Shown here: positions 17,770 to 61,559 of the stretch, piece after piece
Layout: each line of letters begins with the position of its first letter
Position numbering within the stretch: position 1 is the first letter of the stretch
Assembly: GCA_023634235.1 (NCBI GenBank)
Contig: JAMKCF010000001.1
Location: forward strand, 15,820,258-15,884,257
Length of the DNA: 64,000 bases
Direction: 5' to 3'
Origin: Pisaster brevispinus
Lineage: Eukaryota; Echinodermata; Asteroidea; Forcipulatida; Asteriidae
The notes under the pieces: generated by a model
The model's database searches: none
Told to the model about the DNA's origin: nothing
Seen by the model: only the letters and a program-made list of their open reading frames with translations
Translations under genes and position numbers: made by a program

Positions 17770-18751
17770 TGTCTACATGCGTTATAATAGTTCTCCTGTA
17801 TTCTTACATCTTTGACTGATGAAACAACTTATTATTTCTTATAACAGAGTCATTGACTACATATTAATGCGCCTCGTACAGGTTGTCATTTTTTATAGTC
17901 GTACGTGCGCAACAGTATGTCTTTTTTTTGGGGGGGTGGGGCAGGTAATGCCAATGTGTACGAATCAATATCCCAAAGGGTTTCCTTCACAAAGGGACGA
18001 AATACAAATGTAGATGAAAACTTCAATTTAATGCATATTGCACATACTGCATATTTTTCATATTGGAAGTTGCAAATCTAAAATTCATACAGACAAGCCC
18101 CTCGCTGGATACACCACTGCTTGTTAATATGCCACCTCTATAGGGTCTGCGAGACTTGGATCAGGTTGTTGACTTTTCAGGGATTTGCCAAAAGAAAGTA
18201 AAATTTAGTTTAAAGCAGTAGTATGCCAATTTGGTCTTTATTTCATTTACTCATGGATTTAAATGCCATTCACTATTTACTTCTATATGCCCTTCATATC
18301 TTTGAAGTAAGTACAATCATTTCATCTCGTTACATCTCGTTACATCTCACGACTTAACATCATTCAATTACAAGTACAAGGCGCCCCAACTTCACAAGAG
18401 GTGTTATAATGAACATAATACAAGCTGTCTTGTGATTGATCGATTGTGCGTCACATGATGTGTATAATTAATATGTACATGGGATTGTATGATGCAGGTA
18501 CACTTCGAAGTTATGACTGCGCCTCCGCGAAGACAGAGTCGCGGTCACACTATAATCACACTCACAGTAATGTACACAGCATACACGTACACCGCCGAGT
18601 CGGAGGCTCCGTTGCTTATTCATAAATATTTGGCAACCTAGGGGGCACTCGTAGTTAGTAGAAGGAAGATGCACAACAGCGCCCTCTTTAATCTCAAAAA
18701 TGCACAACTGCGTTGGACAATGACTTCTAATATGCAACTTGGGGTGTTTTT
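17770..18751. other. Gene-free interval
   Basis: No coding, RNA or repeat feature that I can support, apart from short G-runs near 17930 and an isolated AGCGCCCTCT motif near 18680. Confidence 0.45.
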
Positions 18752-19045
18752 AGCTGTTTCGTTGCGCAGCGCAGCGAAACAGCTCTTGTTTTCGTTAAAG
18801 TTTTTTTTAGCTGTTTCGTAGCGCAGCGCTGCGAAACAGCTCTTGTTTTCGTTAAAGTTTTTATTATTATTATTAGCTGTTTCGCAGCATAGCGCAGCGG
18901 AACAGCTCTTGTTTTCGTTAAAGTTTTTTTTTTAGCTGTTTCGTAGCGCAGCGCTGCGAAACAGCTCTTGTTTTCGTTAAAGTTTTTTTTAATAGCTGTT
19001 TCGCAGCGCAGCGAAACAGCTCTTGTTTTCGTTAAAGTTTTTTTT
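18752..19045 (+). repeat. Five tandem 5' ends of a Helitron-like repeat
   Basis: Five copies of a ~60-bp end start at 18752, 18809, 18875, 18934 and 18994. Each has an AGCTGTTTCG(C/T) arm, a short loop, a GCGAAACAGCT arm (one GCGGAACAGCT), then CTTGTTTTCGTTAAAG and a T-run. The arms can form a hairpin. The following T-run is where the next copy begins, which suggests repeated insertion into the T-run of an earlier copy's 5' end. Confidence 0.8.
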
Positions 19046-19780
19046 ATTATTTTGTTTTATTTGTCAGTTTCAGTAAAAAAGGCTATTGACATAACGCACG
19101 TTCGGTCAAAGCGGCTTTTTGCATAGTTCCTAAAGAGCAATTGCAATGAAACTTTCAGTGATGAAAGGCATTGGTGCAATAATGATCTCAAAACAATGAG
19201 GTCATGATGACGTCATCACCTGTCACGTGACGTCATCTTAAAGGTTTCTAACTTAAATATTTGAAAATCCGTAACAAATCAGCCACAAAAGACCGTAGGT
19301 TTCCGTTTGCGGGATTGTATAGGGATAAATAAGGTCTTCATTTTATTCAGTGTGCGTGACCTCACATGACCTCTACTTCCGGTCGAAACAGGAAGCGCCT
19401 CGTTATTCAAAAGTGGAAATAGTTATGAAGTTGCTTTCAACGTTGTTATTGTCTGGCAAGGGTGGGTAATTAAAAAAAAACGATGACGTCACAACACAAA
19501 AGAGCGCCCTCTAGCGGCAGGTTGAAAACTGATCAAAATGGACTTTTGAAGATGTGTGTGGTGAAGTTTTGTGTAATCACTTCAAAACTTACACACATGT
19601 TGATCGTCAAGCAGCCATCATGTGTGAAATTTCAGATCGATGACGTCATCGGGGTCACGTGACGCGGCATTAAAGTTCTTGTAAATTCTGAAATGACGTC
19701 ATGATGACGTCATCACATGATTTTTTGAAAAAGTTATGGCGAAACAGCTCGGCATTTGTGCACAAATGCAATATGTCTAG
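19046..19780 (+). repeat. Helitron-like non-autonomous repeat, body 1 with 3' end
   Basis: The body carries several TGACGTCA sites, a GCGCCCTCTAGCGG motif (19504) and, near its 3' end, GGCGAAACAGCTCGG then the perfect palindrome GCATTTGTGCACAAATGC, 7 nt, and terminal CTAG (19777-19780). A hairpin a few nt before CTRR is the 3' signature of Helitrons. The 5' TC of canonical Helitrons is not evident, and inverted AGCTGTTTCG/CGAAACAGCT near both ends is more like Helentron-type asymmetric repeats. No coding capacity. Confidence 0.65.
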
Positions 19781-20597
19781 TTATTTTTTTTATTTGTCTG
19801 TTTCAGTAAAAAAGGCTATTGACATAACGCACGTTCGGTCAAAGCGGCTTTTTGCATAGTTCCTAATGAGCAATTGCAATGAAACTTTCAGTGATGAAAG
19901 GCATTGGTGCAATAATGATCTCAAAACAATGAGGTCATGATGACGTCATCACATGTCACGTGACGTCATCTTAAAGGTTTCTAACTTAAATATTTGAAAA
20001 TCCGTAACAAATCAGCCACAAAAGACCGTAGGTTTCTGTTTGCGGGATTGTATTGGGATAAATAAGGTCTTCATTTTATTCAGTGTGCGTGACCTCACAT
20101 GACCTCTACTTCCGGTCGAAACAGGAAGCGCCTCGTTATTCAAAAGTGGAAATAGTTATGAAGTTGCTTTCAACGATGTTATTGTCTGGCAAGGGTGGGT
20201 AATTAAAAAAAAATACCGATGACGTCACAACACAGAAGAGCGCCCTCTAGCGGCAGGTTGAAAACTGATCAAAATGGACTTTTTGAAGATGTGTGTGGTG
20301 AAGTTTTGTGTAATCACTTAAAAATTTACACACATGTTGATCGTCGAGCAGCCATCATATGTGTAAAATTTCAGATCGATGACGTCATCGGGGGTCACGT
20401 GACGCGGCATTAAAGGTGCCTTTTTTAATAAGTGTTAGTGCGATCATGTTGAAACTTGGTAGGTTGTTGGATATTGGCAAGTTCTTGTAAATTCTGAAAT
20501 GACGTCATGATGACGTCATCACATGATTTTTTATGATTTTTTGAAAAAGTTATGGCGAAACAGCTCGGCATTTGTGCACAAATGCAATATGTCTAGT
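19781..20597 (+). repeat. Helitron-like repeat, body 2, interrupted at its 3' terminus
   Basis: A second body follows directly and lacks its own 5' hairpin, as expected if it is the outer remainder of a copy that received an insertion in its 5' T-run. It ends in the palindrome and CTAG at 20596. The giant TIR element begins at 20598, and the same terminal bases resume at 39207. Confidence 0.7.
20587..20597. repeat. Left target-site duplication of the giant element
   Basis: ATATGTCTAGT immediately left of the TIR is identical to 39207-39217 immediately right of the element. Joining the flanks gives the uninterrupted 3' end seen in sister repeats (for example 19770-19785). If the TIR is read one base longer (T...A), the duplication is 9 bp. 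Confidence 0.85.
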
Positions 20598-20743
20598 AGT
20601 CTTGGTGCAAGACGTTCTCACTACACACACTCAACACTACACACGACGCGACTCAACACTACACACGACGCGACTATTCCACCGATAGAGGGCGTTCTGT
20701 GGAAGCCGCAAACCCGTCAGTAAGAACGTCTTGGCAAACTCGT
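20598..20743. repeat. Left terminal region of the giant element
   Basis: The outer motif AGTCTTGGTGCAAGACGTT (20598-20616) contains a GTCTTG/CAAGAC hairpin. The inner motif AACGTCTTGGCAAACTCGT lies at 20725-20743. CAAGACGTTCT (outer) and AGAACGTCTTG (inner) are complementary, so the whole end can fold back. Between them are two tandem copies of an ACTCAACACTACACACGACG unit and a CCGATAGAGGGCG (CTCF-like) motif. Confidence 0.8.
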
Positions 20744-21047
20744 TCAATCTGCCCGGAAAATTCCGGGCAAATGCCTGGCATACCTGTGACGTACTTCATT
20801 TGCATAAACAGTTTATGCACGTAGAACACGTGATGAGTCTTGTACCCCAACGACTTTGACTCTGACCATTGATGATCTCTGTGTCTCTGATTATGTGTGT
20901 AGAGCTAGAGTAGTTAATGTGTACAGTACATGTAGTATGTAATAAACATTGGACTAGATAGAGCTGAGAGACGTAGACACGGGGCGGCACGGTGGAAAAT
21001 TGCGGTATGCTCGATGAATCGAAATCGAGGAGAGTAATAACAATAAC

Positions 21048-23967
21048 ATGGCGAAGAGTGTTGAAGAGGCGCTAGATTTCGCAGCCCAAAAGTTAGGATT
21101 CGGGAAGTTTAAAGATCATCAAACTTCAGCTCTCCGACAATTTGTACAGGGACACGACTTACTAATAAATTTACCAACAGGCTTTGGTAAAAGCGGTATA
21201 TTCCAGGCTGCACCAGTTGTGTTAGACTTTGTAAATAACGCCAGTGAAGACGACAAAGCTGTTGTCGTCGTAATTCTGCCTTTGAAAGCTCTCGCAGCAG
21301 ACCAAATACATCGGGTTAATCAACTTGGTCTGGAGGCTGTTGACATCACCTCAACTGATATTCCCGATGTTGTTTTGGAGGACTCACATAAATATTCGAT
21401 TTTATTTGCAAGTCCAGAGTCACTATTTACAACAAAGGGAAAGGAGCTGCTGAAGTTGGTGCGGTCAAGATGCCGTGGTATATTTGTTGACGAAAGCCAT
21501 TGTGTAGCAAAGTGGTGAGTACTGTGTCAAAATAGTAACTAATACAGGATTATGATTATATTATTATTTAACACTGACTTACACAGTTCATTTGTTGGGG
21601 AGATTGTTGACTTTTATGATATTTCCAACCCATGTTGAATGCCACAGTTTTCAACAGATTTTAATGAGGTTTTGTGTTATACGAGTTTGACTATTTTTAT
21701 TATCAAAAATAGTTAATGTGCCGATGTTTCGAACCTAGGGAAATCAGGTCAACTCGTACCAAAGTCAACTCCTACCCGAAATATTATACCCAAGTCAACT
21801 CGTACTCATGTCAACTCGTACCGTCTAACGTACGCTAATGCTGCTACATAACTTTTTCCCACCAATACTAATGTAATGCAGGAATTTAATGTGTGCAGGG
21901 AATTGATGTCGTCCTCAGCTTTCCTGGTTAACTATAAAAACTGTTTGGATGAGCGTGTGCCAAGCGGAGGGCGAGTGTGGACGTCGTTGAACAATATAAA
22001 TTATTGCACAGGAAACAAACGTTTCGGCCAAACTTCAATAATAATTTATTTGACGGATAAAACGATTGCAAATACACAGGTACAACAAATCTGGCTGGTA
22101 GATATATGAGAGGCGAGTCTTTGATGTATGGAGCCAGTCGGAACATTCAAGAATGAGAGTCCGAATAAGAACACTTTAAAAAGAGAATTTGGGGGATGTT
22201 ATATAGGGTTTCTGGAGGTGGGGTGTATCTAGATTTAGCAATGATGTCACAGAGAAAATACATCAGATCAGTGACATCATTTGAATATAATAAGTTTGGA
22301 TGAGGTAATGGTCAGCAGGGGAGTAATGGTCAGTGCCTTGGGGAACCTTGGGGTTATAGCCTAGGAATGTGTGTGGTGTGTTTTACAAGATAAGGGAGTG
22401 AGCTTTGAAGTGAAATGGACCACCTGTCGACAATGTTATAATTACAGGGGATAGGGGGGATGGTGAATTTAGTTCCAGAAAATGAGCCTTACACTAATAT
22501 AAATATTTTGCGTAATTTATAATTATTATAAGGAGAAAAAACATACACACAATACAGCAAATAATGAAATTACAGCAATCAATGCAAGGTTTTCCTCTAT
22601 TTGAAAATTTGGAAACCCAATAAATTGTGAAAAGTACATGTATGATTATTGTGGTAGTCAATGCAATAAATTATTGAAATAATTGATAAATTCATTTTTT
22701 GGTTTTCAAAATCCACAGGGGCCATTCATCTGGACAAAGTTCGGCTTTCCGCAAAGTGTATGGTCAACTAGGTGAATTGCGTTCAACACTTCACTCATCA
22801 ACATGTATGGTGGCAAAGACAGCTACAGCTACTCTGAAAGTAAGACAGGTGATCATCAACAGCCTAGGAATGAGAAACTTTGGACTCATTGAGGAAAGCC
22901 CGGAACGTGTAAACATTAAATACACTGTTCTAAAGTCACCAAGCAAAAACTTGGATTTCATGTTCTCCTGGCTGGCAAACAACATTGCTGAAAAGGGTGT
23001 TTTGGCTGACAGAACCATTATTTACTGTCATTCAAGGAAGAATGTGAGCAAGCTGTATACTTTGTTTGCTTCGCTGTTAAGTAAAGAAAATTACTGCCAT
23101 TTTAACATGTACCATACCAACACAGAAAAAGATGTGCAGAAAAGAATAGTCGACAGCTTCTCAGAGAGAGACGGTGAAATTCGTGTTCTCTTTGCAACAA
23201 TTGCTTTCGGACTAGGCATCAATGTACAGAATGTGCAAACCATAGTTATTGTTGGACACCCAACTGAGCTGGATGATGTCATACAACTAAGTGGACGAGC
23301 TGGGAGGGATGTAACACAGAGCGTTTCCATTTTGATAGACTATCCTGGTGCTAGTGCTGGGTTAAAAACCAGTGATGATATGAAGGAATTCTTGAAGGGG
23401 GATGTCTGCAGACGCGAGGTGATCAGAGCAAGCTTCCCAGCCAACAAGGAAAGCACTGTCATTGGACACAATTGTTGTGACATTTGTGCAGAATTATGCA
23501 CTTGTCAGGAAGGAGAATGTAAAGTGCCATCTCCTTTTTCTGAGCAGCAGTTTAGGGACACTCTGATTCATGGTCTGTCCATGTCATCAGAGATGAGAGT
23601 TGTGTCCATCTCAGACAGTAAGATCCAGGAGGTAACAGAGCAGCTCGACAGTCTGAGGGTGAGCCTCTTTTCAGACAGCAGTAGTCATGTTTACACTGGT
23701 GAAGACATAGCATACGGCTTTTCTTTGAATACAATGAAAGAAATCATCAGAGAATGTAACATTGTATTTCCCTTTGACAAGTTTTATGAAAGATATACTT
23801 TCTCGCGCAAAGATATATCTTTGGCAGCATGGAACATTGTAAAATTGTGTGTATATAGAAATGTTGACAGTGTTGACACTATCTCCGAAACTGATACAAA
23901 TTCTAGTATTTCAGATGAGGAAGATGTGTTTTGTGGCGAGTATGGGGAACTGGCCTACAGTAGTTAG
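21048..23967 (+). CDS. RecQ-family ATP-dependent DNA helicase, element-borne
   Basis: Two coding exons, 21048-21514 and 22719-23967, join TG|G to restore a Trp codon and give 571 aa. The start is the first ATG after the left end. The helicase core is complete: Walker A LPTGFGKS (Lys48), motif II as DESH (148-151) followed by CVAKWGH, motif III TATAT (about 190), motif IV IIYCHSRKN, motif V ATIAFGLGIN (about 315-324) and motif VI QLSGRAGRD (345-353). A RecQ-type zinc-binding segment follows with CRRE (386) and CCDIC (408-412). I see no HRDC domain. RecQ helicases unwind DNA 3'-5'. Within this element a role in excision intermediates, end processing or repair is inferred. AATAAA lies at 24137, just inside the 7.4-kb repeat unit. 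It converges with the DUF6589-like gene. Confidence 0.93.
21515..22718 (+). other. Intron of the RecQ gene
   Basis: GTGAGT donor at 21515, CAG acceptor before 22719. It holds a short minisatellite of GTCAACTCGTACC-type units (about 21748-21823), preceded by a GATGTTTCGAACCTAG block. A similar GACGTTTCGAACCTAGC occurs near 30614 and, with a C, near 38056. Confidence 0.8.
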
Positions 23968-24330
23968 AGTGACTGAATAACTTATGGGAATGCTCAGTGC
24001 AGGTACAATTTGTATTAAAAGAACCAAACCCATTTCAACCTCTTGAATATTGACTTGAGTGATACCCGTTTTAATGAAACATTTTCTGGGACTACTTATT
24101 TTCATTTATTAATATTCTTTAACATGAAAAGATTGAAATAAACATACTCTTCAAAAGCAATGCAGTAACTTTTTATTATCCCTTTATTAACATGAAAGAG
24201 AACCTTGGTGTTAGGGGAAAAGTTCTGTTGCAGTATATTGTTTGTAACTTTATGATGGAATGGGCAATTAAAGTTATTTATAGGAGTTTACTCCTCATTC
24301 TGTCCACCGATGACTAGTATTCGACCCACC

Positions 24331-25764
24331 ACTTGATAATTAATAGACCCAGACAGCCAGTCTGGACACAAGTGTCTAGGTGAGCATTAGATTAATTAGG
24401 ATGGGGTGCTTGTGAGATTGGGGGAAGTGCCTGGGGTAAAACAAAATAACCAGATAACAATAACAACAGCCCTCCAGTGCTCTTTACCAAGTAACTTTGT
24501 ATGGTCATTAACTTGTGGAGTAAATGCCAAAAGTATACCCTGCCGTTAACCAGTTGACTCCAAAATATGAACATCACATACATTTACATGTACATGTAAC
24601 TCTAACTTTAAAATAAATTGACAGTTAAGGCTTCTAAGCTAGTAAACTAAATACATCCTGAATTGATCTAACACAAAATGAGGTTTGATACATTTTGTGA
24701 GTTTGCTATTTTTGTAAAAGATGTTACTACACTTATGAAGCTTCCACTTCAATTGTATCACAGGAAGTGATTATATGAAACATTAGTTTACCCCCCCCCC
24801 CCACAAAACAAAACAAAATTAAAGAAGAGAAAAAAAAAGGAATATAAGAGGGTTGACACATTTTAAAAATACAGCACAGTCGCCAACCAAATTAGATGGA
24901 TTTCAATGGGATAATCACTGATGTACAGACAGTAAATGGAATAATCTCATGTAATTAATTGTTGAATCAGGTTGTTAAGGATGCCCCTTAAGCTCATGTT
25001 TTATACAATAGGTGTGTTAATGCCAAGCACAGATAATATAAGCATTTCACTTGATAATTAATAGACCCAGACAGCTAGTCTGGACACTAGTGTCTAGGTG
25101 AGCATTAGATTAATTAGGATGGGGTGCTTGTGAGATTGGGAGAAGTGCCTGGGGTAAAACAAAATAACCAGCTTACAATAACAACAGCCCTCCAGTGCTC
25201 TTTACCAAGTAACTTTGTATGGTCATTAACTTGTGGAGTAAATGCCAAAAGTATACCCTGCCTTTAACCAGTTGACTCCAAAATATGAACATTACATACA
25301 TTTACATGTACATGTAACTCTAACTTTAAAATAAATAGACAGTTAAGGCTTCTAAGCTAGTAAACTAAATACATCCTGAATTGATCTAACACAAAATGAG
25401 GTTTGATACATTTTGTGAGTTTGCTATTTTTGTAAAAGATGTTACTACACTTATGAAGCTTCCACTTCAATTGTATCACAGGAAGTGATTATATGAAACA
25501 TTAGTTTACCCCCCCCCCACAAAAAAAAAATATTAAAGAAGAGAAACAAAATGGAATATAAGAGGGTTGTCACATTTTAAAAATACAGCACAGTCGCCAA
25601 CCAAATTAGATGGATTTTAATGGGATAATCGCTGATGTACAGACAGTAAATGGAATAATCTCATGTAATTAATTGTTGAATCAGGTTGTTAAGGATGCCC
25701 CTTAAGCTCATTTTTTTATACAATAGGTGTGTTAATGCCAAGCACAGATAATATAAGCATTTCA
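24331..25764. repeat. Nested ~717-bp tandem duplication inside copy A
   Basis: Units 24331-25048 and 25049-25764 both begin ACTTGATAATTAATAGACCC and end AGCATTTCA. They differ at scattered sites and in the C-run, so they are older than the 7.4-kb duplication. No coding function is apparent. Confidence 0.85.
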
Positions 25765-26068
25765 AAAGCCCTGGTACTAATAAGTAATCTAATGTTAAGC
25801 CTTTTTTGATCAAGTTCAGGATATTTACATTTAGGGTTGTTTTTGTATATACATGTGTATTACGTATGAGTTTCAGAGTCTTTTCATAACTTAAGTGAAA
25901 CCTGTTTTTGTGAAACATTTCCTGGGATTACTGAAAGTATTTTCATTTGTCAATATTGTTGAACATGAGAAGATTGAAATAAACATGCTCTCAAAAGCAA
26001 TGCAGTAACCAGTATCATCCCTTCATTAATATTGAGTGTTTAAAGAGAACCATGGTAAGGGGGAAAAG

Positions 26069-29000
26069 TCACATTTCACCTCTTGCCATCTGCTTCGTGG
26101 AAGATTTAATCCATTTATGAAGTTCAGGAACATTCAGTGTAGAAAGCACTGAGCATGGGAAGTCAGGGAATTTGAAATGTTTCCTACCAGGTTGTATATC
26201 AAAAACCTTATTGTGATGCAGTTCCATAGCTAATTCTATTTGGTCTTTGGTGTTTTTATTGGTGTGTTTTCCAGACGGCCTCTTTACAAGTGTTTGCTGG
26301 TTGATTGAGGCAAGTAACTCATCACAGGCTTGTGCTGAATGACTTATTCTATCAATACTCTTACTCGTGACTTTCCCCCTCAAACCGGCACAGTTCTCTT
26401 TAAACACTCTGTTTTGGTGTTCAATTTCACGATCGACTTCAATGTTATGTTTGGCTTTGCCTGCTTTATTGATGAATCTGTTCCATTTCAGTTCGTAGGC
26501 TAACCTTGGGGTAAGGAAACACTGAACTTGTGCCAGCAAGCGCAACACCTGGTAACTGTATTTCGGTTTCTTTGCGGCTTTAAAGTGCAGTAAAAGAAAT
26601 TTGTACAGCCTGATGACTCTTTCCCCATCGCCCATTTGCCGTGCATCATTAAAGTTCATGGCCAAGAGACAAAGGCTTAGTGCTGCTCGTGTGTAATTAA
26701 ATAGTGCATCTTTACTTGGAGGTCGTCCTTCCTTCTGCTGTGTAGGCGGTTGAATTCCAGAGTGTTTTTGCTTCATGTGATTTTTGAGGCCTCTCTGTGT
26801 CTGATATTTTTTCTTGCAACTTGGACAAGACAACACCGGGGAATCTTTCCTCACTTCATCATTACTGGGAATAGCATAATTATTCACAATTTCTTCTAAC
26901 ACATTATAGACATACGGAGTTCTGTCTTTGTGTTTGTCATACACAAAATCATTGCGTGTAGGATGATCTGATACTGCATCCAGTCCAAAGTACTCCATAG
27001 CAGCAGCAATAACAAGAGCAACAGTGTACTGTGAAATCAGATCAGCAGCCGCATTGATGTTTCTCATCGAGTCACTTGTTACCTTTCGTGCTTCGAGAAA
27101 GTTCCTGGCTGCATACAATGTGCCTTTGTCTCCACTTGATGTGGTGTCATACAAGTGTAACCAGATCACCTGTTGAAAATATGAAAACACAAAATTAATT
27201 TTAACAATCACAACCTATATTGGTTTCATGAGGATGGGACATTTTTTAACAATTGTGTGACATTTGCCCTCATTATTTAAAGCTTTCTTTAACATTTGAC
27301 TAAATTATTTCTGATTGCTTTTAAATTGGATGGTCAGCCCCAAAGCAATGTTTATTAGTTTTCTTCATCACTCTATTTCCAAACATCGAACCAGAAACAT
27401 GTCTCTAACCTTCCTCTGATAAAATACTGTGCTGTACTACTAGTTGTTTTCGACTCTACAATAAAGTCAATGTAAAATCAACGTTTGTGTAATTCTTAAT
27501 TATTCTATTGGGAAAAACACCCAAACCTTATAAGTTGAAATGAAACACTGTGTCCAAAGTTCATGTCACAGTAAATAAACTGACACTGGTTTCAATCAAT
27601 TATTTGGTTATTGTGTGATGAAGAAGGAAAAAATGGAAAGAAGTCTCCTTGAGATGCATTTCTTCATATTATTACATACCTGATAAAAATTTGCCAATGC
27701 GTGGAAATCTGCTATGACAGGTACCAATCCTTCCAAACGTTGACTGGGTGTTGTTGAGTTACACTGCTCCCTCTTGCAGGAGCTCTCTCTTTCACAACTC
27801 AACAGATCACCAGCACTGATTATTGGAGTAGGTGTGTCGGTGCCATGGCCGGGTACATACTTGTGTAAGTGATGCATGATGTTATAAATTCCTTGTGCAG
27901 TATTCTCACTCTCCATGAGCACACCAAGGTTCACCTAATGCATTAAAATTTTAAATGCAAAGATTTAAAAAACAAATTAAAGATCCAAATTATCTTTTTT
28001 CATTTGTATTTCCTCCTTCAATTTAATACTATTGGTTTTAGGATTTAACTAAAAACTATTAAGATCTTGTCAATAAAAGAGAAATTAACACTTATTTTCA
28101 GCAGTCAAAGAAAAACAGAAAACAAATGGAATTAAAAAGGAAAATTGTGTTTGAATCAAGCTGGAAACATTTCTGTGGAGAATTAGTACTGGTATGAACT
28201 TCTAAATCAGTGAAGTAATCAAATCAACTGATCTGATCATTTCTTTTTCGTTGATTACGAATACCTGTATGTTATTTTTAAGTGCACTTGTTAATATTGA
28301 AAACCAGTTTTTAAATTTATTTTTATTATTTTCTAAATTTTAAGTCATAAACAGAACCACACATTTTTCAAATGGAGTGCACTTTTTATGAATGGAAAAT
28401 CACTACAAATTTTTTTCAGAGATTTTGACTTCAGTAGTACAGTAATTTTATTTATACATTAAGTATTTAATCAAGTAAAAAAGCTCTTACAATTTGTGAC
28501 TTCTTGCACATATCTGACATGTGGTCATGATGAGGTTGTGCTGGGACATGTCCACTGATCCACTTGAGGGCTGGAATGTGACTGGAAATGATGTTCCCAA
28601 TGAGCAGCATCCACTCATGCTTCAGAGTTTTGTTGTCACTTAAAGTAGGCAGGAAATCTTCAACATTGATGGACGATACTGTTGAAATGGGTGCATCATT
28701 GGGCAAGTGATAACCCTCTACTCTGTTCTTGACTGCTATTGCATGAGCCATATGAAGATCTGATCCATGCTTTTCACGAGAGGTGTGCCGAGGATGTATG
28801 ACAAGATCAACATTGTCCATGATTACTTGAAACCCATGATCTGTCCTCTTTTCCTGAAAATGTCTCCACTCCTCATCTGTTGATATGGATTTGATAAGTC
28901 TTTCTTCGGCATCTGCTTTGGACTTCTCCTCTGCCCACTTCTTTGTTTCATTATCAAAGTCTGATCCAAAATCAACTTGCCGTTGCAAGGTTGTGGGGTA

Positions 29001-31279
29001 GCTAGAGCAAACAAATCTGGCACAAAGGTGGCTAAAGGCAGACTTTTTGGCACCACTCTGTTTTAATATTAAAGATGTCAGGACTTGGTGAGTGTTCATG
29101 GTTTGTGAACGACACTTGAGGAGAATTCCTGCTGCCGTTGTGATTCCTGGGATGAGCGTTTCCTGTGTTTTTCTGACATTTCTTTGCAATCCCTGACTTT
29201 CTGCAGCTGCATGCAAGACTGCAGACAACAGAGGGGACTTGTCTTGGAGTTCCTGATGTTGTTCAGCATAGCTGAATTTCTGGAGATCTTTAAGATTTGC
29301 TCCGCGGAACAGAGACGGGTTGTTAGGACTGCACAAATTTGTCACTTCCTTGACTACAGTGTTGACCAATGCAAATCTAAATTCCTCTTCAGCTTCTTCC
29401 GATTTTAGAACAATGCTTAGTGCTCGCCGTCTGTCTCCAGCACAAAGTGCAGCAGCAACATCAATCCACATTCCCGACAGATCCCTCCTTTCTACTTGAT
29501 GTTCATAGTGCATTGTCACCTAGTGAAGATAAAGAAATTTAAGACACACTTAAGCTTCACTACACTATGAGACATTAAACCACGGAATGAGGAAAATAAT
29601 ATGTTGATAAGCAAACTCAATGTGCACAAGCTGTAGTTGCCACAGATGAAACAAATACACCTGTACTTAAAAGTTTTTCTTTGAATGTTACTGTTTTTAA
29701 AAGCACAACAGATGGAAAAATAGAGATGAGAGAATATATAATTACCTCAGCTTTAACTGTTGAGGTTTCCTCGAAACTGATTCTTTTCCTTGATGGCTGT
29801 GGGTAAAATAAAGTGTACATTAACCCTTACATAAAACTATAGGCTGTCCTGAATCATTCACCTTGGAAATTGGATATTTATTTTAAAGAATTATTTTGAA
29901 ACAAATTAATGAAATGTCATTTTGGGTATGGTGCATAAAATCTGTAATGAATTGGCCACCTAACTGAAAAGTAACAAACAGTTCACCAAGTCACACATTT
30001 TTCTAAAAAAAAAGTTGTACATTAAGTTTGTTGGCCTGAAATAAGTTGGTGTTCATGGCTCATTTTTCTCTAAAGTACAAAAACGAAAACAATGAACACA
30101 ATTAGATAAAGGTTTTGATTTCACATGATAAAACATTTGTTTACTTACAATTATACAAAACTGCAATGTACAACAGCCCAGTTACTTTTCATAATTTATT
30201 TAATTAAAATTTAAAGGCATTTCCTTCTTGTAATTAGTGCTATTTGCTGTAATTTTTTGTTTCTGATTGCAGGAATTTATACCTTTCGGAATATGAAACT
30301 GCTAAATTGCAAACTTAGAAAAGCAGATGACGAGAAAAAAAGCCCATTTCATTTGCTATAGTTTGTAGACTAAAAACCAATCAACAAAATAATATGGGAC
30401 TTTAATTGTTATTGTTTATTTTAATTTGGCAAAACTCAGACATGTCAGAACTTGCACTTCTCTAGTTCTACAAATTTTATTCTTGTTTGAACTTGACATC
30501 CTCTATCCATTTCAAACTCAAGATAAAAAAAACAAAAAAACTTGTTTAGTGAGTGCAAATTGTTTCAGAGTGTGTTGTCACTATACATTTTCAAAAATTA
30601 GTTTGTGGCCTGACGTTTCGAACCTAGCAGAGTCTTTCATGACACAATAGATAGAGATGGATTGTTCGAAAGAGAATTTGTGCCAAAGCGGCCTTTTACT
30701 CGCTCATATTTATATTGAGTTTTTCAAGAAAGTAAAGAAAAGCCCTTGACATTTTTTGGAACCCCCCCCCCCCCCCCCGTAATGAATGAAAACGAAATAT
30801 TCACACAATTTGCATTTGGTAGCGTAAGCTAACAAATTATGAATCAATACGTGTCAAGAAATGCTCTTACTTACTTTTCGTGTTGTCGGGGTTCCTGGAG
30901 AACCCACTGCCTTTCTTTTCTGTCGATCCAGCAGTTTCTGCGGACTTGCTTGGGGTGTTTGAGCCGGGGGGAGATCGCTGCTGCCCAGACGAGTTGCTTT
31001 GGTTTTCTGGTAACTTCGTTTTATTTCATTTCGTTTGTCGTTACTCTTTTGCACGTTTACCACCTTGGTAAAACAACCGTCACACATAAATGTCGTATTA
31101 GAATGTACGACTGCATCATCAACGATGTCATTTAACTGGGCTGGAAATAATGGGCTTTTCTTGGCCAAGGTGCTCAATGTGGAATATCTCTTACAAGTGA
31201 TCAACTCTCTGTTACATATCACACACCAGCGAGATTTTCTTGCTCGAATACCGACAGCAGTTGCCTCTGCTGCGGCCAT
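26069..31279 (-). CDS. DUF6589-like protein, candidate transposase, copy A
   Basis: Five exons on the minus strand, all introns phase 0: 31279-30875, 29796-29746, 29519-28491, 27934-27680 and 27169-26069, totalling 946 aa. The N-terminus has paired cysteines at 19/22 and 66/69 (CVIC...CDGC), a likely zinc ribbon. A basic linker follows. The large central exon (153-495) contains IMDNVD (Asp387/390) and HPRHTSREKHG. The next exon has AGDLLSCERE (Asp538) and VPVIADFHALANFY (Asp571). The last exon carries DHPTRNDFVYDKHKDRTPYV and a C2H2 finger at Cys695/Cys698/His711/His716. This layout resembles animal DUF6589 proteins, which I remember as multicopy and uncharacterised. Spaced acidic residues could form a DDE-type nuclease centre, but this is inference. 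Differs from copy B at residue 731 (Arg here). Confidence 0.75.
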
Positions 31280-31778
31280 TTTTACACTATTATTACCACA
31301 AAGTTACTCAACAGTAGTAAAAAGTACACTGTAAAAAGAGTTGGCGAAACTATAACAAACTCTCTACGTACTATAAATACAACCCCTACAGTACAGTCTG
31401 ACAGCACATGGACATACGCGCAAAACAGTCCACACGGATACAAAGTACACAAACTCCAAACTAAGTTAGTTGATAAGCTCCATGGTTGTTGTACGTATAT
31501 ACTGCACTGTACCAGTCTGTCAGCTCTGCTTTTCTGGGACTACTTATTTTCATTTATTAATATTCTTTAACATGAAAAGATTGAAATAAACATACTCTTC
31601 AAAAGCAATGCAGTAACTTTTTATTATCCCTTTATTAACATGAAAGAGAACCTTGGTGTTAGGGGAAAAGTTCTGTTGCAGTATATTGTTTGTAACTTTA
31701 TGATGGAATGGGCAATTAAAGTTATTTATAGGAGTTTACTCCTCATTCTGTCCACCGATGACTAGTATTCGACCCACC

Positions 31779-33208
31779 ACTTGATAATTAATAGACCCAG
31801 ACAGCCAGTCTGGACACAAGTGTCTAGGTGAGCATTAGATTAATTAGGATGGGGTGCTTGTGAGATTGGGGGAAGTGCCTGGGGTAAAACAAAATAACCA
31901 GATAACAATAACAACAGCCCTCCAGTGCTCTTTACCAAGTAACTTTGTATGGTCATTAACTTGTGGAGTAAATGCCAAAAGTATACCCTGCCGTTAACCA
32001 GTTGACTCCAAAATATGAACATCACATACATTTACATGTACATGTAACTCTAACTTTAAAATAAATAGACAGTTAAGGCTTCTAAGCTAGTAAACTAAAT
32101 ACATCCTGAATTGATCTAACACAAAATGAGGTTTGATACATTTTGTGAGTTTGCTATTTTTGTAAAAGATGTTACTACACTTATGAAGCTTCCACTTCAA
32201 TTGTATCACAGGAAGTGATTATATGAAACATTAGTTTACCCCCCCCCACAAAACAAAACAAAATTAAAGAAGAGAAAAAAAAAGGAATATAAGAGGGTTG
32301 ACACATTTTAAAAATACAGCACAGTCGCCAACCAAATTAGATGGATTTCAATGGGATAATCACTGATGTACAGACAGTAAATGGAATAATCTCATGTAAT
32401 TAATTGTTGAATCAGGTTGTTAAGGATGCCCCTTAAGCTCATGTTTTATACAATAGGTGTGTTAATGCCAAGCACAGATAATATAAGCATTTCACTTGAT
32501 AATTAATAGACCCAGACAGCTAGTCTGGACACTAGTGTCTAGGTGAGCATTAGATTAATTAGGATGGGGTGCTTGTGAGATTGGGAGAAGTGCCTGGGGT
32601 AAAACAAAATAACCAGCTTACAATAACAACAGCCCTCCAGTGCTCTTTACCAAGTAACTTTGTATGGTCATTAACTTGTGGAGTAAATGCCAAAAGTATA
32701 CCCTGCCTTTAACCAGTTGACTCCAAAATATGAACATTACATACATTTACATGTACATGTAACTCTAACTTTAAAATAAATAGACAGTTAAGGCTTCTAA
32801 GCTAGTAAACTAAATACATCCTGAATTGATCTAACACAAAATGAGGTTTGATACATTTTGTGAGTTTGCTATTTTTGTAAAAGATGTTACTACACTTATG
32901 AAGCTTCCACTTCAATTGTATCACAGGAAGTGATTATATGAAACATTAGTTAACCCCCCCCACAAAAAAAAAAATATTAAAGAAGAGAAACAAAATGGAA
33001 TATAAGAGGGTTGTCACATTTTAAAAATACAGCACAGTCGCCAACCAAATTAGATGGATTTTAATGGGATAATCGCTGATGTACAGACAGTAAATGGAAT
33101 AATCTCATGTAATTAATTGTTGAATCAGGTTGTTAAGGATGCCCCTTAAGCTCATTTTTTTATACAATAGGTGTGTTAATGCCAAGCACAGATAATATAA
33201 GCATTTCA
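31779..33208. repeat. Nested ~717-bp tandem duplication inside copy B
   Basis: Same pair as in copy A: units 31779-32493 and 32494-33208. Confidence 0.85.
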
Positions 33209-33512
33209 AAAGCCCTGGTACTAATAAGTAATCTAATGTTAAGCCTTTTTTGATCAAGTTCAGGATATTTACATTTAGGGTTGTTTTTGTATATACATGT
33301 GTATTACGTATGAGTTTCAGAGTCTTTTCATAACTTAAGTGAAACCTGTTTTTGTGAAACATTTCCTGGGATTACTGAAAGTATTTTCATTTGTCAATAT
33401 TGTTGAACATGAGAAGATTGAAATAAACATGCTCTCAAAAGCAATGCAGTAACCAGTATCATCCCTTCATTAATATTGAGTGTTTAAAGAGAACCATGGT
33501 AAGGGGGAAAAG

Positions 33513-36500
33513 TCACATTTCACCTCTTGCCATCTGCTTCGTGGAAGATTTAATCCATTTATGAAGTTCAGGAACATTCAGTGTAGAAAGCACTGAGCAT
33601 GGGAAGTCAGGGAATTTGAAATGTTTCCTACCAGGTTGTATATCAAAAACCTTATTGTGATGCAGTTCCATAGCTAATTCTATTTGGTCTTTGGTGTTTT
33701 TATTGGTGTGTTTTCCAGACGGCCTCTTTACAAGTGTTTGCTGGTTGATTGAGGCAAGTAACTCATCACAGGCTTGTGCTGAATGACTTATTCTATCAAT
33801 ACTCTTACTCGTGACTTTCCCCCTCAAACCGGCACAGTTCTCTTTAAACACTCTGTTTTGGTGTTCAATTTCACGATCGACTTCAATGTTATGTTTGGCT
33901 TTGCCTGCTTTATTGATGAATCTGTTCCATTTCAGTTCGTAGGCTAACCTTGGGGTAAGGAAACACTGAACTTGTGCCAGCAAGCGCAACACCTGGTAAC
34001 TGTATTTCGGTTTCTTTGCGGCTTTAAAGTGCAGTAAAAGAAATTTGTACAGCCTGATGACTCTTTCCCCATCGCCCATTTGCCGTGCATCATTAAAGTT
34101 CATGGCCAAGAGACAAAGGCTTAGTGCTGCTCGTGTGTAATTAAATAGTGCATCTTTACTTGGAGGTAGTCCTTCCTTCTGCTGTGTAGGCGGTTGAATT
34201 CCAGAGTGTTTTTGCTTCATGTGATTTTTGAGGCCTCTCTGTGTCTGATATTTTTTCTTGCAACTTGGACAAGACAACACCGGGGAATCTTTCCTCACTT
34301 CATCATTACTGGGAATAGCATAATTATTCACAATTTCTTCTAACACATTATAGACATACGGAGTTCTGTCTTTGTGTTTGTCATACACAAAATCATTGCG
34401 TGTAGGATGATCTGATACTGCATCCAGTCCAAAGTACTCCATAGCAGCAGCAATAACAAGAGCAACAGTGTACTGTGAAATCAGATCAGCAGCCGCATTG
34501 ATGTTTCTCATCGAGTCACTTGTTACCTTTCGTGCTTCGAGAAAGTTCCTGGCTGCATACAATGTGCCTTTGTCTCCACTTGATGTGGTGTCATACAAGT
34601 GTAACCAGATCACCTGTTGAAAATATGAAAACACAAAATTAATTTTAACAATCACAACCTATATTGGTTTCATGAGGATGGGACATTTTTTAACAATTGT
34701 GTGACATTTGCCCTCATTATTTAAAGCTTTCTTTAACATTTGACTAAATTATTTCTGATTGCTTTTAAATTGGATGGTCAGCCCCAAAGCAATGTTTATT
34801 AGTTTTCTTCATCACTCTATTTCCAAACATCGAACCAGAAACATGTCTCTAACCTTCCTCTGATAAAATACTGTGCTGTACTACTAGTTGTTTTCGACTC
34901 TACAATAAAGTCAATGTAAAATCAACGTTTGTGTAATTCTTAATTATTCTATTGGGAAAAACACCCAAACCTTATAAGTTGAAATGAAACACTGTGTCCA
35001 AAGTTCATGTCACAGTAAATAAACTGACACTGGTTTCAATCAATTATTTGGTTATTGTGTGATGAAGAAGGAAAAAATGGAAAGAAGTCTCCTTGAGATG
35101 CATTTCTTCATATTATTACATACCTGATAAAAATTTGCCAATGCGTGGAAATCTGCTATGACAGGTACCAATCCTTCCAAACGTTGACTGGGTGTTGTTG
35201 AGTTACACTGCTCCCTCTTGCAGGAGCTCTCTCTTTCACAACTCAACAGATCACCAGCACTGATTATTGGAGTAGGTGTGTCGGTGCCATGGCCGGGTAC
35301 ATACTTGTGTAAGTGATGCATGATGTTATAAATTCCTTGTGCAGTATTCTCACTCTCCATGAGCACACCAAGGTTCACCTAATGCATTAAAATTTTAAAT
35401 GCAAAGATTTAAAAAACAAATTAAAGATCCAAATTATCTTTTTTCATTTGTATTTCCTCCTTCAATTTAATACTATGGGTTTTAGGATTTAACTAAAAAC
35501 TATTAAGATCTTGTCAATAAAAGAGAAATTAACACTTATTTTCAGCAGTCAAAGAAAAACAGAAAACAAATGGAATTAAAAAGGAAAATTGTGTTTGAAT
35601 CAAGCTGGAAACATTTCTGTGGAGAATTAGTACTGGTATGAACTTCTAAATCAGTGAAGTAATCAAATCAACTGATCTGATCATTTCTTTTTCGTTGATT
35701 ACGAATACCTGTATGTTATTTTTAAGTGCACTTGTTAATATTGAAAACCAGTTTTTAAATTTATTTTTATTATTTTCTAAATTTTAAGTCATAAACAGAA
35801 CCACACATTTTTCAAATGGAGTGCACTTTTTATGAATGGAAAATCACTACAAATTTTTTTCAGAGATTTTGACTTCAGTAGTACAGTAATTTTATTTATA
35901 CATTAAGTATTTAATCAAGTAAAAAAGCTCTTACAATTTGTGACTTCTTGCACATATCTGACATGTGGTCATGATGAGGTTGTGCTGGGACATGTCCACT
36001 GATCCACTTGAGGGCTGGAATGTGACTGGAAATGATGTTCCCAATGAGCAGCATCCACTCATGCTTCAGAGTTTTGTTGTCACTTAAAGTAGGCAGGAAA
36101 TCTTCAACATTGATGGACGATACTGTTGAAATGGGTGCATCATTGGGCAAGTGATAACCCTCTACTCTGTTCTTGACTGCTATTGCATGAGCCATATGAA
36201 GATCTGATCCATGCTTTTCACGAGAGGTGTGCCGAGGATGTATGACAAGATCAACATTGTCCATGATTACTTGAAACCCATGATCTGTCCTCTTTTCCTG
36301 AAAATGTCTCCACTCCTCATCTGTTGATATGGATTTGATAAGTCTTTCTTCGGCATCTGCTTTGGACTTCTCCTCTGCCCACTTCTTTGTTTCATTATCA
36401 AAGTCTGATCCAAAATCAACTTGCCGTTGCAAGGTTGTGGGGTAGCTAGAGCAAACAAATCTGGCACAAAGGTGGCTAAAGGCAGACTTTTTGGCACCAC

Positions 36501-38717
36501 TCTGTTTTAATATTAAAGATGTCAGGACTTGGTGAGTGTTCATGGTTTGTGAACGACACTTGAGGAGAATTCCTGCTGCCGTTGTGATTCCTGGGATGAG
36601 CGTTTCCTGTGTTTTTCTGACATTTCTTTGCAATCCCTGACTTTCTGCAGCTGCATGCAAGACTGCAGACAACAGAGGGGACTTGTCTTGGAGTTCCTGA
36701 TGTTGTTCAGCATAGCTGAATTTCTGGAGATCTTTAAGATTTGCTCCGCGGAACAGAGACGGGTTGTTAGGACTGCACAAATTTGTCACTTCCTTGACTA
36801 CAGTGTTGACCAATGCAAATCTAAATTCCTCTTCAGCTTCTTCCGATTTTAGAACAATGCTTAGTGCTCGCCGTCTGTCTCCAGCACAAAGTGCAGCAGC
36901 AACATCAATCCACATTCCCGACAGATCCCTCCTTTCTACTTGATGTTCATAGTGCATTGTCACCTAGTGAAGATAAAGAAATTTAAGACACACTTAAGCT
37001 TCACTACACTATGAGACATTAAACCACGGAATGAGGAAAATAATATGTTGATAAGCAAACTCAATGTGCACAAGCTGTAGTTGCCACAGATGAAACAAAT
37101 ACACCTGTACTTAAAAGTTTTTCTTTGAATGTTACTGTTTTTAAAAGCACAACAGATGGAAAAATAGAGATGAGAGAATATATAATTACCTCAGCTTTAA
37201 CTGTTGAGGTTTCCTCGAAACTGATTCTTTTCCTTGATGGCTGTGGGTAAAATAAAGTGTACATTAACCCTTACATAAAACTATAGGCTGTCCTGAATCA
37301 TTCACCTTGGAAATTGGATATTTATTTTAAAGAATTATTTTGAAACAAATTAATGAAATGTCATTTTGGGTATGGTGCATAAAATCTGTAATGAATTGGC
37401 CACCTAACTGAAAAGTAACAAACAGTTCACCAAGTCACACATTTTTCTAAAAAAAAAGTTGTACATTAAGTTTGTTGGCCTGAAATAAGTTGGTGTTCAT
37501 GGCTCATTTTTCTCTAAAGTACAAAAACGAAAACAATGAACACAATTAGATAAAGGTTTTGATTTCACATGATAAAACATTTGTTTACTTACAATTATAC
37601 AAAACTGCAATGTACAACAGCCCAGTTACTTTTCATAATTTATTTAATTAAAATTTAAAGGCATTTCCTTCTTGTAATTAGTGCTATTTGCTGTAATTTT
37701 TTGTTTCTGATTGCAGGAATTTATACCTTTCGGAATATGAAACTGCTAAATTGCAAACTTAGAAAAGCAGATGACGAGAAAAAAAGCCCATTTCATTTGC
37801 TATAGTTTGTAGACTAAAAACCAATCAACAAAATAATATGGGACTTTAATTGTTATTGTTTATTTTAATTTGGCAAAACTCAGACATGTCAGAACTTGCA
37901 CTTCTCTAGTTCTACAAATTTTATTCTTGTTTGAACTTGACATCCTCTATCCATTTCAAACTCAAGATAAAAAAAACAAAAAAACTTGTTTAGTGAGTGC
38001 AAATTGTTTCAGAGTGTGTTGTCACTATACATTTTCAAAAATTAGTTTGTGGCCTGACGTTTCGACCCTAGCAGAGTCTTTCATGACACAATAGATAGAG
38101 ATGGATTGTTCGAAAGAGAATTTGTGCCAAAGCGGCCTTTTACTCGCTCATATTTATATTGAGTTTTTCAAGAAAGTAAAGAAAAGCCCTTGACATTTTT
38201 TGGAACCCCCCCCCCCGTAATGAATGAAAACGAAATATTCACACAATTTGCATTTGGTAGCGTAAGCTAACAAATTATGAATCAATACGTGTCAAGAAAT
38301 GCTCTTACTTACTTTTCGTGTTGTCGGGGTTCCTGGAGAACCCACTGCCTTTCTTTTCTGTCGATCCAGCAGTTTCTGCGGACTTGCTTGGGGTGTTTGA
38401 GCCGGGGGGAGATCGCTGCTGCCCAGACGAGTTGCTTTGGTTTTCTGGTAACTTCGTTTTATTTCATTTCGTTTGTCGTTACTCTTTTGCACGTTTACCA
38501 CCTTGGTAAAACAACCGTCACACATAAATGTCGTATTAGAATGTACGACTGCATCATCAACGATGTCATTTAACTGGGCTGGAAATAATGGGCTTTTCTT
38601 GGCCAAGGTGCTCAATGTGGAATATCTCTTACAAGTGATCAACTCTCTGTTACATATCACACACCAGCGAGATTTTCTTGCTCGAATACCGACAGCAGTT
38701 GCCTCTGCTGCGGCCAT
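33513..38717 (-). CDS. DUF6589-like protein, candidate transposase, copy B
   Basis: Same five-exon gene in the second tandem unit: 38717-38313, 37240-37190, 36963-35935, 35378-35124 and 34613-33513, all phase 0, 946 aa. The only protein difference I see from copy A is Leu for Arg at residue 731, shortly after the C2H2 finger. All splice sites and the reading frame are intact in both copies. This copy lies next to the element's right end, so its promoter is presumably in 38718-39047; copy A has only the first ~250 bp of that region. Family reasoning as for copy A. Confidence 0.75.
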
Positions 38718-39047
38718 TTTTACACTATTATTACCACAAAGTTACTCAACAGTAGTAAAAAGTACACTGTAAAAAGAGTTGGCGAAACTATAACAAACTC
38801 TCTACGTACTATAAATACAACCCCTACAGTACAGTCTGACAGCACATGGACATACGCGAAAAACAGTCCACACGGATACAAAGTACACAAACTCCAAACT
38901 AAGTTAGTTGATAAGCTCCATGGTTGTTGTACGTATATACTGCACTGTACCAGTCTGTCAGCTCTGCTTGTGCGCTTGCGTATTTTCGTTGTGACCTTTG
39001 TTGAATATGCAATAGAGGTCACATTTGTTTATGTCACGTGAGACGAG
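38718..39047. promoter_or_regulatory. Likely promoter region of DUF6589-like copy B
   Basis: Intergenic sequence between the copy B start codon and the right terminal motifs. It contains an AT-rich TTTATAG-type motif on the minus strand near 38813 and a GTCACGTGA E-box near 39033. The part up to 38968 is shared with copy A; the remainder is unique to the right end. Promoter function is inferred from position. Confidence 0.4.
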
Positions 39048-39206
39048 ACGAGTTTGCCAAGACGTTGTTTTGAGTGCGATGTGTGGTGGTGATCTGGAAG
39101 TTTCCCAACAGCGCCCGCTATTGTACGATAGTCATGCGGGCCGCGGATGGCGCGCTAAATCGCGATAGTTGCGTGATAATGAACAACAACGTCTTGCACC
39201 AAGACT
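39048..39206. repeat. Right terminal region of the giant element
   Basis: Mirror of the left end. The complement of the inner 19-bp motif is at 39048-39066 and that of the outer motif at 39188-39206, both perfect. CAAGACGTTGTT and AACAACGTCTTG can pair. The sequence between the motifs is unrelated to the left end apart from a CAGCGCCCGCTA motif, so selection seems to act on the motifs. Confidence 0.8.
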
Positions 39207-39217
39207 ATATGTCTAGT
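39207..39217. repeat. Right target-site duplication of the giant element
   Basis: The second ATATGTCTAGT copy, followed by TTGTTATT as expected for the interrupted repeat's 3' flank. Confidence 0.85.
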
Positions 39218-39224
39218 TGTTATT

Positions 39225-40243
39225 AGCTGTTTCGCAGCATAGCGCAGCGGAACAGCTCTTGTTTTCGTTAAAGTTTTTTTTTTTATTATTTTTTTTTTTT
39301 TATTTTTTTTTTTAATTTGTATTTTTCAGACAAAATTCGTTCTAAGCGGCTTTTTGCATAGTTCCTAAAGAGCAATTGCAATGAAACTTTCAGTGATGAA
39401 AGGCATTGGTGCAAAGATGATTTTAAAACAATTATGTCATGATGACGTCATCACCTGTCACGTGACGTCATCTTAAAGTTTCCTTTTTTTTAATATTTGA
39501 AAATCTATATCAAATCAACCACAAGAGACCGTAGGTTTCTGTTTGCGGGATTGGGTGGGGATAAATTAGGTCTTCATTTTATTCAGTGTGCGTGACCTCA
39601 CATGACCTCTACTTCCGGTCTAAACAGGAAGTGCTTTGTAATTCAAAAGTGTAAATAGTTATGAAGTTGCTTTCAACGATGTTATTGTCTGGCAAGGGTG
39701 TGCATTTAAAAAAAAATACCGATGACGTCACGATACACAAGAGCGCCCTCTAGCGGCAGGTTGAAAACTGTTCAAAATGGACTTTTTGAAGATGTGTGTG
39801 GAGAACTTTTGTGTAATCACTTCAAAACTTACACACATGTTGACCGTCAGGCAGCCATCATATGTGTGAAGTTTCAGATTGATGACGTCATCGGGGGTCA
39901 CGTGACGCGGCATTAAAGGTGCCTTTTTTGAAGTCGTATATCTCCCGAAGTATAAGTGCGATCATGTTGAAACTTGGTAGGTCGTTAGATATTGGCAAGT
40001 TCTTGTGAATTCTTAAATGACGTCGTGATGACGTTATCACATGATTTTTAATGATTTTTTTCGTTTTTTGCCCCTTTAAGTCATAAATTGCTAACAAAAC
40101 GTGGTATAATCCAAATTCTTTTTAAAACAGGCTTGATACATCATTACTGCTTTGAATACAAACAACTTTCATATTCAATTGAGTAATTTGAAAAAGTTAT
40201 GGCGAAACAGCTCGGCATTTGTGCACAAATGCAATATGTCTAG
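39225..40243 (+). repeat. Helitron-like repeat, copy 3, complete with both ends
   Basis: Begins with the AGCTGTTTCGC hairpin end at 39225 and ends with the 18-bp palindrome and CTAG at 40240-40243. Contains CRE-like palindromes and GCGCCCTCTAGCGG at 39743. It also has an extra ~130-bp segment before the 3' end that copies 1 and 2 lack. Confidence 0.75.
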
Positions 40244-41120
40244 TTATTTTTGTTTTCCTTTTTTTATTTGTCTGTTTCAGTAAAAAGAGCCATTGACATA
40301 ACACACGTTCGTTCTAAGCGGCCTTTGCATAGTTCCTAATGGGCAATTGCAATGAAACTTTCAGTGATGAAAGGCATTGGTGCAATAATGATCCTAAAAC
40401 AATGATGTCATGATGACGTCATCACCTGTCACGTGACGTCATTTTAAAGGTTTATATTTTAAATATTTGAAAATCTGTAACAAATCAGCCACAAATCAGC
40501 CACAAGAGACCGTACGTTTCTGTTTGCGGGATTGTATAGGGATAAATTAGGTCCTCATTTTATTCAGTGTGCGTGACCTCGCATGAACTCTACTTCCGGT
40601 CGAAACCGGAAGTGCCTCGTAATTCAAAAGTGCTAAAAGTTATGAAAATGCTTTCAACGATGTTAGTGTCTGGCAAGGGTGTGTATTTAAAAAAAATACC
40701 GATGACGTCACGATACACACGAGCGCCCTCTAGCGGCAGGTTGAAAACTGTTCAAAATGGACTTTTTGAAGATGTGTGTGGAGAAGTTTTGTGTAATCAC
40801 TTCAAAATGTACACACATGTTAAACGTCAGGCAGCCATTATATGTGTGAAGTTTCAGATCGATGACATCATCGGGAGTCACGTGACGTGGCATTAAAGGT
40901 GCACTTTTTGAAGTCGTATAACTCCCGAAGTAATGTTGCGATCATGATGAAACTTGGTAGGTTGTTGGATAATGGGAAGTTCCTGTAAATTGTAAAATGA
41001 CGTCATGATGACGTCATCACATGATTTTTTATGATTTTAATTTTTGTTTACCCCTTTTACTCATGAAATGCTAACGAAACATGTTATAATCAGTATTCGA
41101 ATTTAAACAGGCTCGATAGG
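40244..41120 (+). repeat. Helitron-like repeat, copy 4, lacking 5' hairpin and 3' end
   Basis: Same body including GCGCCCTCTAGCGG at 40723, followed by the longer 3' segment resembling copy 3 (CTCATGAAATGCTAACGAAAC). Homology fades near 41120 before any palindrome or CTAG. Confidence 0.65.
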
Positions 41121-46234: not shown

Positions 46235-46600
46235 ACACCATGCTGTCCTCCTTTAGGTAATGCTATCATCTTAATGAATGGGATATTTATTGCAATCAAA
46301 TGTTTTTCTAAACCATTTAAACAATCTAACTGCTGTGGAATATCTGTGAGTGTTAAATTATTGACATACGCCTCTGCTGGAAAGTCATTATTGAGTAGTT
46401 TCCTATGACATGTGTAACATATCCACAAGCATGATCTGCTGGACTTTAACACAGGACAACTTGATGGACAATTTCGACTACAAGTATGGACATAATTTGC
46501 AGATAAAATACTGGAGTCTCTGTATTTATCTTGTTTACATTTCAGAACCTGTTTTCGAAAGAGAAGTTTAAGACAAACAGCGCAAAATATTCAGGTCCTT
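45994..46600 (-). pseudogene. DUF6570-like cysteine-rich block of the Helitron protein
   Basis: From about 46592 the frame shifted by one base reads CAVCLKLLFRKQVLKC, then HTCSRNCPSSCPVL, CYTCHRKLLNNDFP and LIAINIPFIKMIALPKGG with [11 protein letters not shown]. This cysteine-rich region normally sits between the N-terminal repeat region and Rep. It ends at the artificial stop created by the 334-bp insert. Confidence 0.7.
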
Positions 46601-60900: not shown

Positions 60901-61555
60901 TACAACCTCAAATGACATTTTCAGATATTTTAAATAATGGTGTACATAAATAACTAAAAAATTAATGGTCATGTAATTTTGTTCCTTTTTTAAGTTTAGC
61001 ATTTTCTTTTCTATGGATTTTGTCCGCGAAAAAAATTGCATAGTTGCGGACCTCTGATGAACTTCAAACTTTGATTAATTAAACTGGATAACAGACCACC
61101 AAAGGAACAATGCAAATAAAATCACTTGGTTATTTTGTATTAATACCATTCTTTTTTATCCATTATTTAATTGCAAAAGAAGACAACAGCACACAGCTTT
61201 CACTGTATAACCCTTGTCTAAATTTGTTTAAACAAACCTTTGTGTAACATCCGTTGGATTGCTTTTAGCAACCTAATAGAAAAACAATTACATTGTCACG
61301 ATTAACAAAAGGTTTAATACTATTAATTTGATTCTAAAGTGATTTGTATAAGTTCCATTGTTGAATTTTTTTATTTTACCATGTTTAAATCTTTCCAAAG
61401 CACCCAAACCCGAACATACACGCATCGTTGGCCGCAAACTTTGACATCTTTCCAAAACTCGCACGGTCATAAACTTGGCAACAATCATCTGATGAAAAGA
61501 TGAAACAAAAATATCGACAACATAATAACGTCACCCATTCAAAATAAGATCGATG
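57993..61555. other. Gene-free AT-rich interval
   Basis: 3' flank of the OB-fold gene (AATAAA near 58335), a CpG-containing patch at 58750-58920, a G-run at about 59400, and otherwise no feature I can support. Open frames at 60074-60436 and 61288-61488 lack coding character. Confidence 0.4.
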
Positions 61556-61559
61556 AACG

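Follow-up and report, generated by a model that had tools for sequence, protein, structure and literature searches.

A DNA transposon with RecQ and DUF6589 genes in Pisaster brevispinus, probably of the AcademH lineage

In a 64,000-nucleotide stretch of the Pisaster brevispinus genome (the window), a gene for a RecQ-like helicase lies close to genes for DUF6589 proteins, which raises the question of whether they belong to one mobile element and, if so, to which kind. The window is C1:15820258-15884257 in an assembly of 549.7 Mb and 512 contigs, to which all genome-wide counts below refer. A preliminary description had proposed an undescribed large DNA transposon with DUF6589 as its transposase. 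We found that the element is real and mobile and that RecQ and DUF6589 are parts of it. With good confidence, we read it as a DNA transposon that makes 9-bp target site duplications (TSDs) and has a single predicted gene for RecQ and a pair of predicted genes for DUF6589. Its likely identity is AcademH; DUF6589 would then act as the DDD/E transposase, probably with help from the helicase.

The 19-mer AGTCTTGGTGCAAGACGTT occurs exactly at 20598-20616 on the forward strand and at 39188-39206 on the reverse strand, forming the terminal inverted repeats (TIRs) of the element. To set the exact ends, we used 17 further facing pairs of this 19-mer, drawn from the first 100 places listed. One additional element base recurs at each end, T at 16 of the 17 left ends and A at all 17 right ends; therefore, the window TIR is 20 bp long, and the element limits and 9-bp TSD are those given in Table 1. 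The perfect match of the TIRs described previously stands, with a length of 20 rather than 19 bp, and the target duplication, given before as 9 to 11 bp, is present and measures 9 bp. The empty site in sister repeats was confirmed as well. The uninterrupted target is present in three of them, near 19770, 40235, and 63513, and when the window flanks were joined minus one TSD, a BLAST alignment to the sister repeat at 63110-63965 spanned the junction (86%, with gaps). The host repeats that served as the target are about 0.7 to 1.0 kb long (18747-20597, 39215-41118, and 61536-64000), and a 57-bp minisatellite lies within a host repeat at 18747-19046.

Between these ends, the RecQ gene on the forward strand and both DUF6589 genes on the reverse strand are convergent. 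The predicted coding sequences contain no in-frame stops, in agreement with the two intact gene types noted earlier. The RecQ-like protein spliced from two predicted exons has 571 amino acids and matches RecQ 1oyw (E 2.8e-31). The DUF6589 (PF20231) protein has 929 amino acids from four predicted exons. Sea stars and sea urchins are the sources of the eight nearest proteins (51 to 56% identity). A tandem duplication of about 7.44 kb, whose units align over 7,448 columns with 7 mismatches and 3 gaps, has given the element two copies of the DUF6589 gene, and the proteins of copies a and b differ at one residue. Minus one unit, the element would measure about 11.2 kb, near the 10.7 kb of its relative on C98, and the duplication probably arose secondarily in the window copy.

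Table 1. Features of the window element and related elements at other loci (positions are those of the window unless a contig is named)
Feature	Position	Strand	Remarks
Whole element, 18,611 bp	20597..39207		TIRs, 9-bp TSD, empty site in sister repeats
Left TIR TAGTCTTGGTGCAAGACGTT	20597..20616	+	20/20 match with other end
Right TIR, same 20 bp inverted	39188..39207	-	20/20 match with left end
TSD TATGTCTAG, left copy	20588..20596		Flank of window element
TSD TATGTCTAG, right copy	39208..39216		Flank of window element
RecQ-like helicase, predicted exon 1	21048..21514	+	PF00270 E 1.6e-15; splice site read from sequence
RecQ-like helicase, predicted exon 2	22719..23967	+	PF00271 E 1.1e-17
DUF6589 copy a, predicted exon 1	30875..31279	-	Cys/His-rich N terminus
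DUF6589 copy a, predicted exon 2	28491..29519	-	First conserved Asp (motif DNVD)
DUF6589 copy a, predicted exon 3	27680..27934	-	Second conserved Asp (GD); PF20231 E 5.9e-7
DUF6589 copy a, predicted exon 4	26069..27169	-	C2H2 finger and conserved Glu of EH; PF20231 E 9.6e-27
DUF6589 copy b	33513..38717	-	Exons 38717-38313, 36963-35935, 35378-35124, 34613-33513
Tandem duplication unit 1	24082..31529		99.77% identity to unit 2
Tandem duplication unit 2	31530..38969		Head to tail with unit 1
C98 element	C98:270531-281209		TSD TGAAGAAAG; TIR near-identical to window's, two changes in 20
C33 element	C33:776114-784826		TSD ATCACATAT
C20 element	C20:10916359-10923965		TSD TAGTTTGCA
C13 element	C13:8762418-8772700		TSD AGTAATCAC; TIR clearly diverged from window's

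The evidence that the two genes travel together comes from the rest of the assembly. Searches returned at least 47 DUF6589 matches in at least 31 loci and at least 41 RecQ matches in at least 31 loci. Eighteen of the 31 RecQ-like loci have a DUF6589 locus no more than 12 kb away, where 0.0014 is expected per locus, and all 18 pairs are convergent. The remaining 13 RecQ loci have no such partner; nor do 13 DUF6589 loci, which include the second copy in the window. We read 15 kb at each of six further neighborhoods containing both genes. Another copy on C33, at 1.34 Mb, was treated as a segmental duplicate and not as an independent insertion because its alignment to the C33 element of Table 1 continues past both element ends. 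Complete related TIRs with perfect 9-bp TSDs, each different, were present at four of the six neighborhoods, so the proposal of a single mobile element passed the search of the 550-Mb assembly for such ends around such genes elsewhere. From the first to the last element base, the C33 and C20 copies are 99.3 to 99.5% identical, the C20 copy having an internal deletion, and their flanks are unrelated. Because the identity lies exactly between the TIRs, the RecQ and DUF6589 genes have moved as a unit. The C13 copy has a 99.4% relative at C1:8.55 Mb, which lacks a complete TIR pair, its left end having been lost. For the C50 element, no left end was found in the 15 kb read, and the right end is a candidate. 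An unbiased scan, in which ends had to combine a 9-bp TSD with an inverted match at 12 or more of 15 bases, identified ends in five of seven loci, the window included, versus 0 of 140 flank shuffles. Within the window it gave four further matches, of which the two shown score 12/15 and lie in host repeats. The diverged families with both genes are 25 to 45% identical in protein to the window's.

The ends also occur apart from the genes. The exact 19-mer is present 106 times in forward and 98 times in reverse orientation, with no occurrence of the reversed control. Twelve of the 17 facing TIR pairs have flanking 9-bp duplications that differ at no more than one position (nine perfect), one pair has two mismatches, and four have three or more. 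Among the other lengths from 5 to 13, only length 6 matches, in 1 of the 17 pairs, and length 8 gives none; as a control, mismatched left and right flanks agreed with two or fewer mismatches in 2 of 272 combinations. Fourteen of the 17 pairs are short (114 to 528 bp), and several carry subterminal sequence of the window element. The left 123 bp of that element has 41 matches, two of which, at other places, are 100% identical. The best match elsewhere in the RecQ search of the assembly is 67% identical to the window RecQ, so this search revealed no further coding copy closely related to the window element. As candidate coding copies, we rejected a 9.4-kb TIR pair (L039, C4:19460200-19469850), in which neither RecQ nor DUF6589 is matched, and a 4.9-kb pair (L055), whose frames, as read, appear to be those of a DIRS-type retrotransposon. 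In L039, and also in L003 to L005, the TIR motif sits within a longer inverted repeat that is present in several copies and whose flanks are inverted, not duplicated; this repeat may be a different mobile element into which the ends were absorbed. An exact TIR of a sister type lies at C1:6.98 Mb; a relative of the DUF6589 first exon is located about 550 bp inside it, and neither RecQ nor further DUF6589 exons were found in the 10 kb read. At C7:15799404-15800336 (L059), the TIR motif is included in the repeat unit of a 37-bp minisatellite with 25 copies.

The AcademH lineage of the Academ superfamily was reportedly described by Kojima in 2020 (said to be in Mob DNA 11:15). The relevant passages of PMC10045372 give AcademH a helicase and TSDs of 9 or 10 bp and give AcademX a nuclease and TSDs of 3 or 4 bp; AcademH occurs in animals according to passages of that paper and of PMC10799480. 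The window element is like AcademH, as so described, in helicase, TSD length, and animal host. A RecQ-like gene lies inside the TIRs of the window element and of four other TIR-bounded elements, and TSDs of 9 bp flank the window element, 12 of the 17 TIR pairs, and the four other coding elements. Those passages on AcademH mention neither a convergent layout of two genes nor DUF6589.

The AcademX combination was found in the same genome, in a second type of DUF6589 element (L026 and L028, read with flanks at C1:7.28 Mb and C21:11.21 Mb). These X-type elements have 3- and 4-bp TSDs, CTAC at the C1 copy as read from its flanks. Their protein contains an OTU-like stretch, and the model of a homologue has an EXO1/FEN1/XPG-like nuclease fold; that fold search concerned the nuclease part only and is uninformative on the homologue's DUF6589 part. 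In the X-type protein itself, no nuclease was detected by Pfam or by PDB sequence search (E up to 10 in each). The window element shares the DUF6589 domain with this type but has RecQ instead of a nuclease, a different TIR, and a 9-bp TSD. We use the name AcademH because of the published description and because of this AcademX-like sister type. The window element is thus probably an AcademH transposon and, on that reading, no new kind, contrary to its first labeling as undescribed; the identification is by description and not by comparison with AcademH sequences from the literature. That DUF6589 and RecQ elements form a new superfamily, resembling AcademH in helicase and TSD length by convergence only, we consider unlikely. 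The word DUF6589 does not occur in the literature searched, which under that word yields no link to Academ, and this absence, along with the descriptive basis of the name, favors such a superfamily. Four papers with the string PF20231 were unrelated by title. Against it, the published pairings of helicase with 9 to 10 bp and of nuclease with 3 to 4 bp both recur here with DUF6589.

Since both published combinations occur with it in this genome, DUF6589 is most likely the Academ transposase. A structural model of the protein resembles the P element, Hermes (hAT), ISCth4, RAG1, and Transib enzymes with moderate Z scores and about 10% identity; the match covers residues ~250 to 860, and a large insertion precedes the last catalytic residue. 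The conserved D, D, and E of DUF6589 are placed in the model as in DDE transposases, which supports the role first proposed for this protein. The likeness to these enzymes is in fold only, and to our knowledge, they differ in TSD length and have no RecQ partner. The P and hAT superfamilies make 8-bp TSDs, a length seen in none of the 17 pairs, and membership in either was rejected. On the strength of the fold model and the conserved residues, the DUF6589 protein would cut and join the element ends, and the RecQ-type helicase would likely assist transposition. The DUF6589 alignment retrieved seven proteins from a protein database, all close relatives and fragments, and one scan of viral contigs with it gave 91 pattern matches and no relative.

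Alternatively, RecQ and DUF6589 might be captured passengers, and an unrelated transposase encoded at another locus might mobilize the ends in trans. Mobilization in trans is required, since short noncoding derivatives have the same ends, and MULEs, too, typically make 9-bp TSDs. We nevertheless judge this account very improbable, because the convergent pair has been kept at 18 loci and in families as diverged as those above, because DUF6589 itself models as a DDE enzyme, and because the six window exons match no other transposase family in Pfam. Least probable of all is membership in another superfamily with RecQ or long TSDs: KolobokH is, in passages of PMC9587614, likewise a DDE transposon with a RecQ helicase, but its helicase lies downstream of the transposase domain, it is restricted to fungi, and the Kolobok TSD is TTAA (4 bp) versus 9 bp of varied sequence here, while MuDR/MULE elements, whose TSDs of 4 to 10 bp (PMC10045372) would fit, have the transposase domain PF10551 (passage in PMC8290104), for which the six window exons give no match at E ≤ 1.

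The tips of these putative AcademH elements share a further property. Each of six end sequences begins with TA, followed by a near-palindrome of 15 to 16 bp with 6 of 7 complementary pairs and, once, 8 of 8. The comparison covered the window, C98, the C33/C20 family (both ends), C13, and C50 and kept the best result over a few offsets and lengths; the calculated probability that a random 15-mer reaches 6 of 7 pairs at one fixed position is ~0.0013. Because the families are related, a stronger point than the pairing count is that stem changes are compensated between them (GTC..GAC, GAC..GTC, and GCC..GGC; second stem base T, A, or C). Judged by their sequence, the tips may be hairpins or a two-fold protein site. 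A more specific and doubtful idea is that RecQ opens or extrudes hairpin tips and that the partner enzyme, helicase or nuclease, on a shared transposase domain sets the cleavage spacing at 9 or 3 to 4 bp.

DUF6589, a Pfam family of unknown function, gains a likely function as the Academ transposase, and the model connects it with P, hAT, and RAG1-type enzymes. Many of the RecQ-like and DUF6589 copies in this genome are mobile-element genes and should be excluded from host gene-family counts; to this extent, within this genome, the earlier explanation of why these genes are multicopy applies. This genome contains the transposase domain in both a helicase-partnered and a nuclease-partnered version, which differ in TSD length, and so offers a natural test of the partner's effect on transposition.

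Elsewhere in the window, a 422-amino-acid frame on the reverse strand (46542-47810), with no Pfam match at E ≤ 0.01, contains an in-frame 54-bp tandem repeat (6.2 copies, 46865-47201). Also on the reverse strand, 44229-46452 matches Helitron_like_N (E 2e-35) and DUF6570 and represents the remains of a Helitron-type element.
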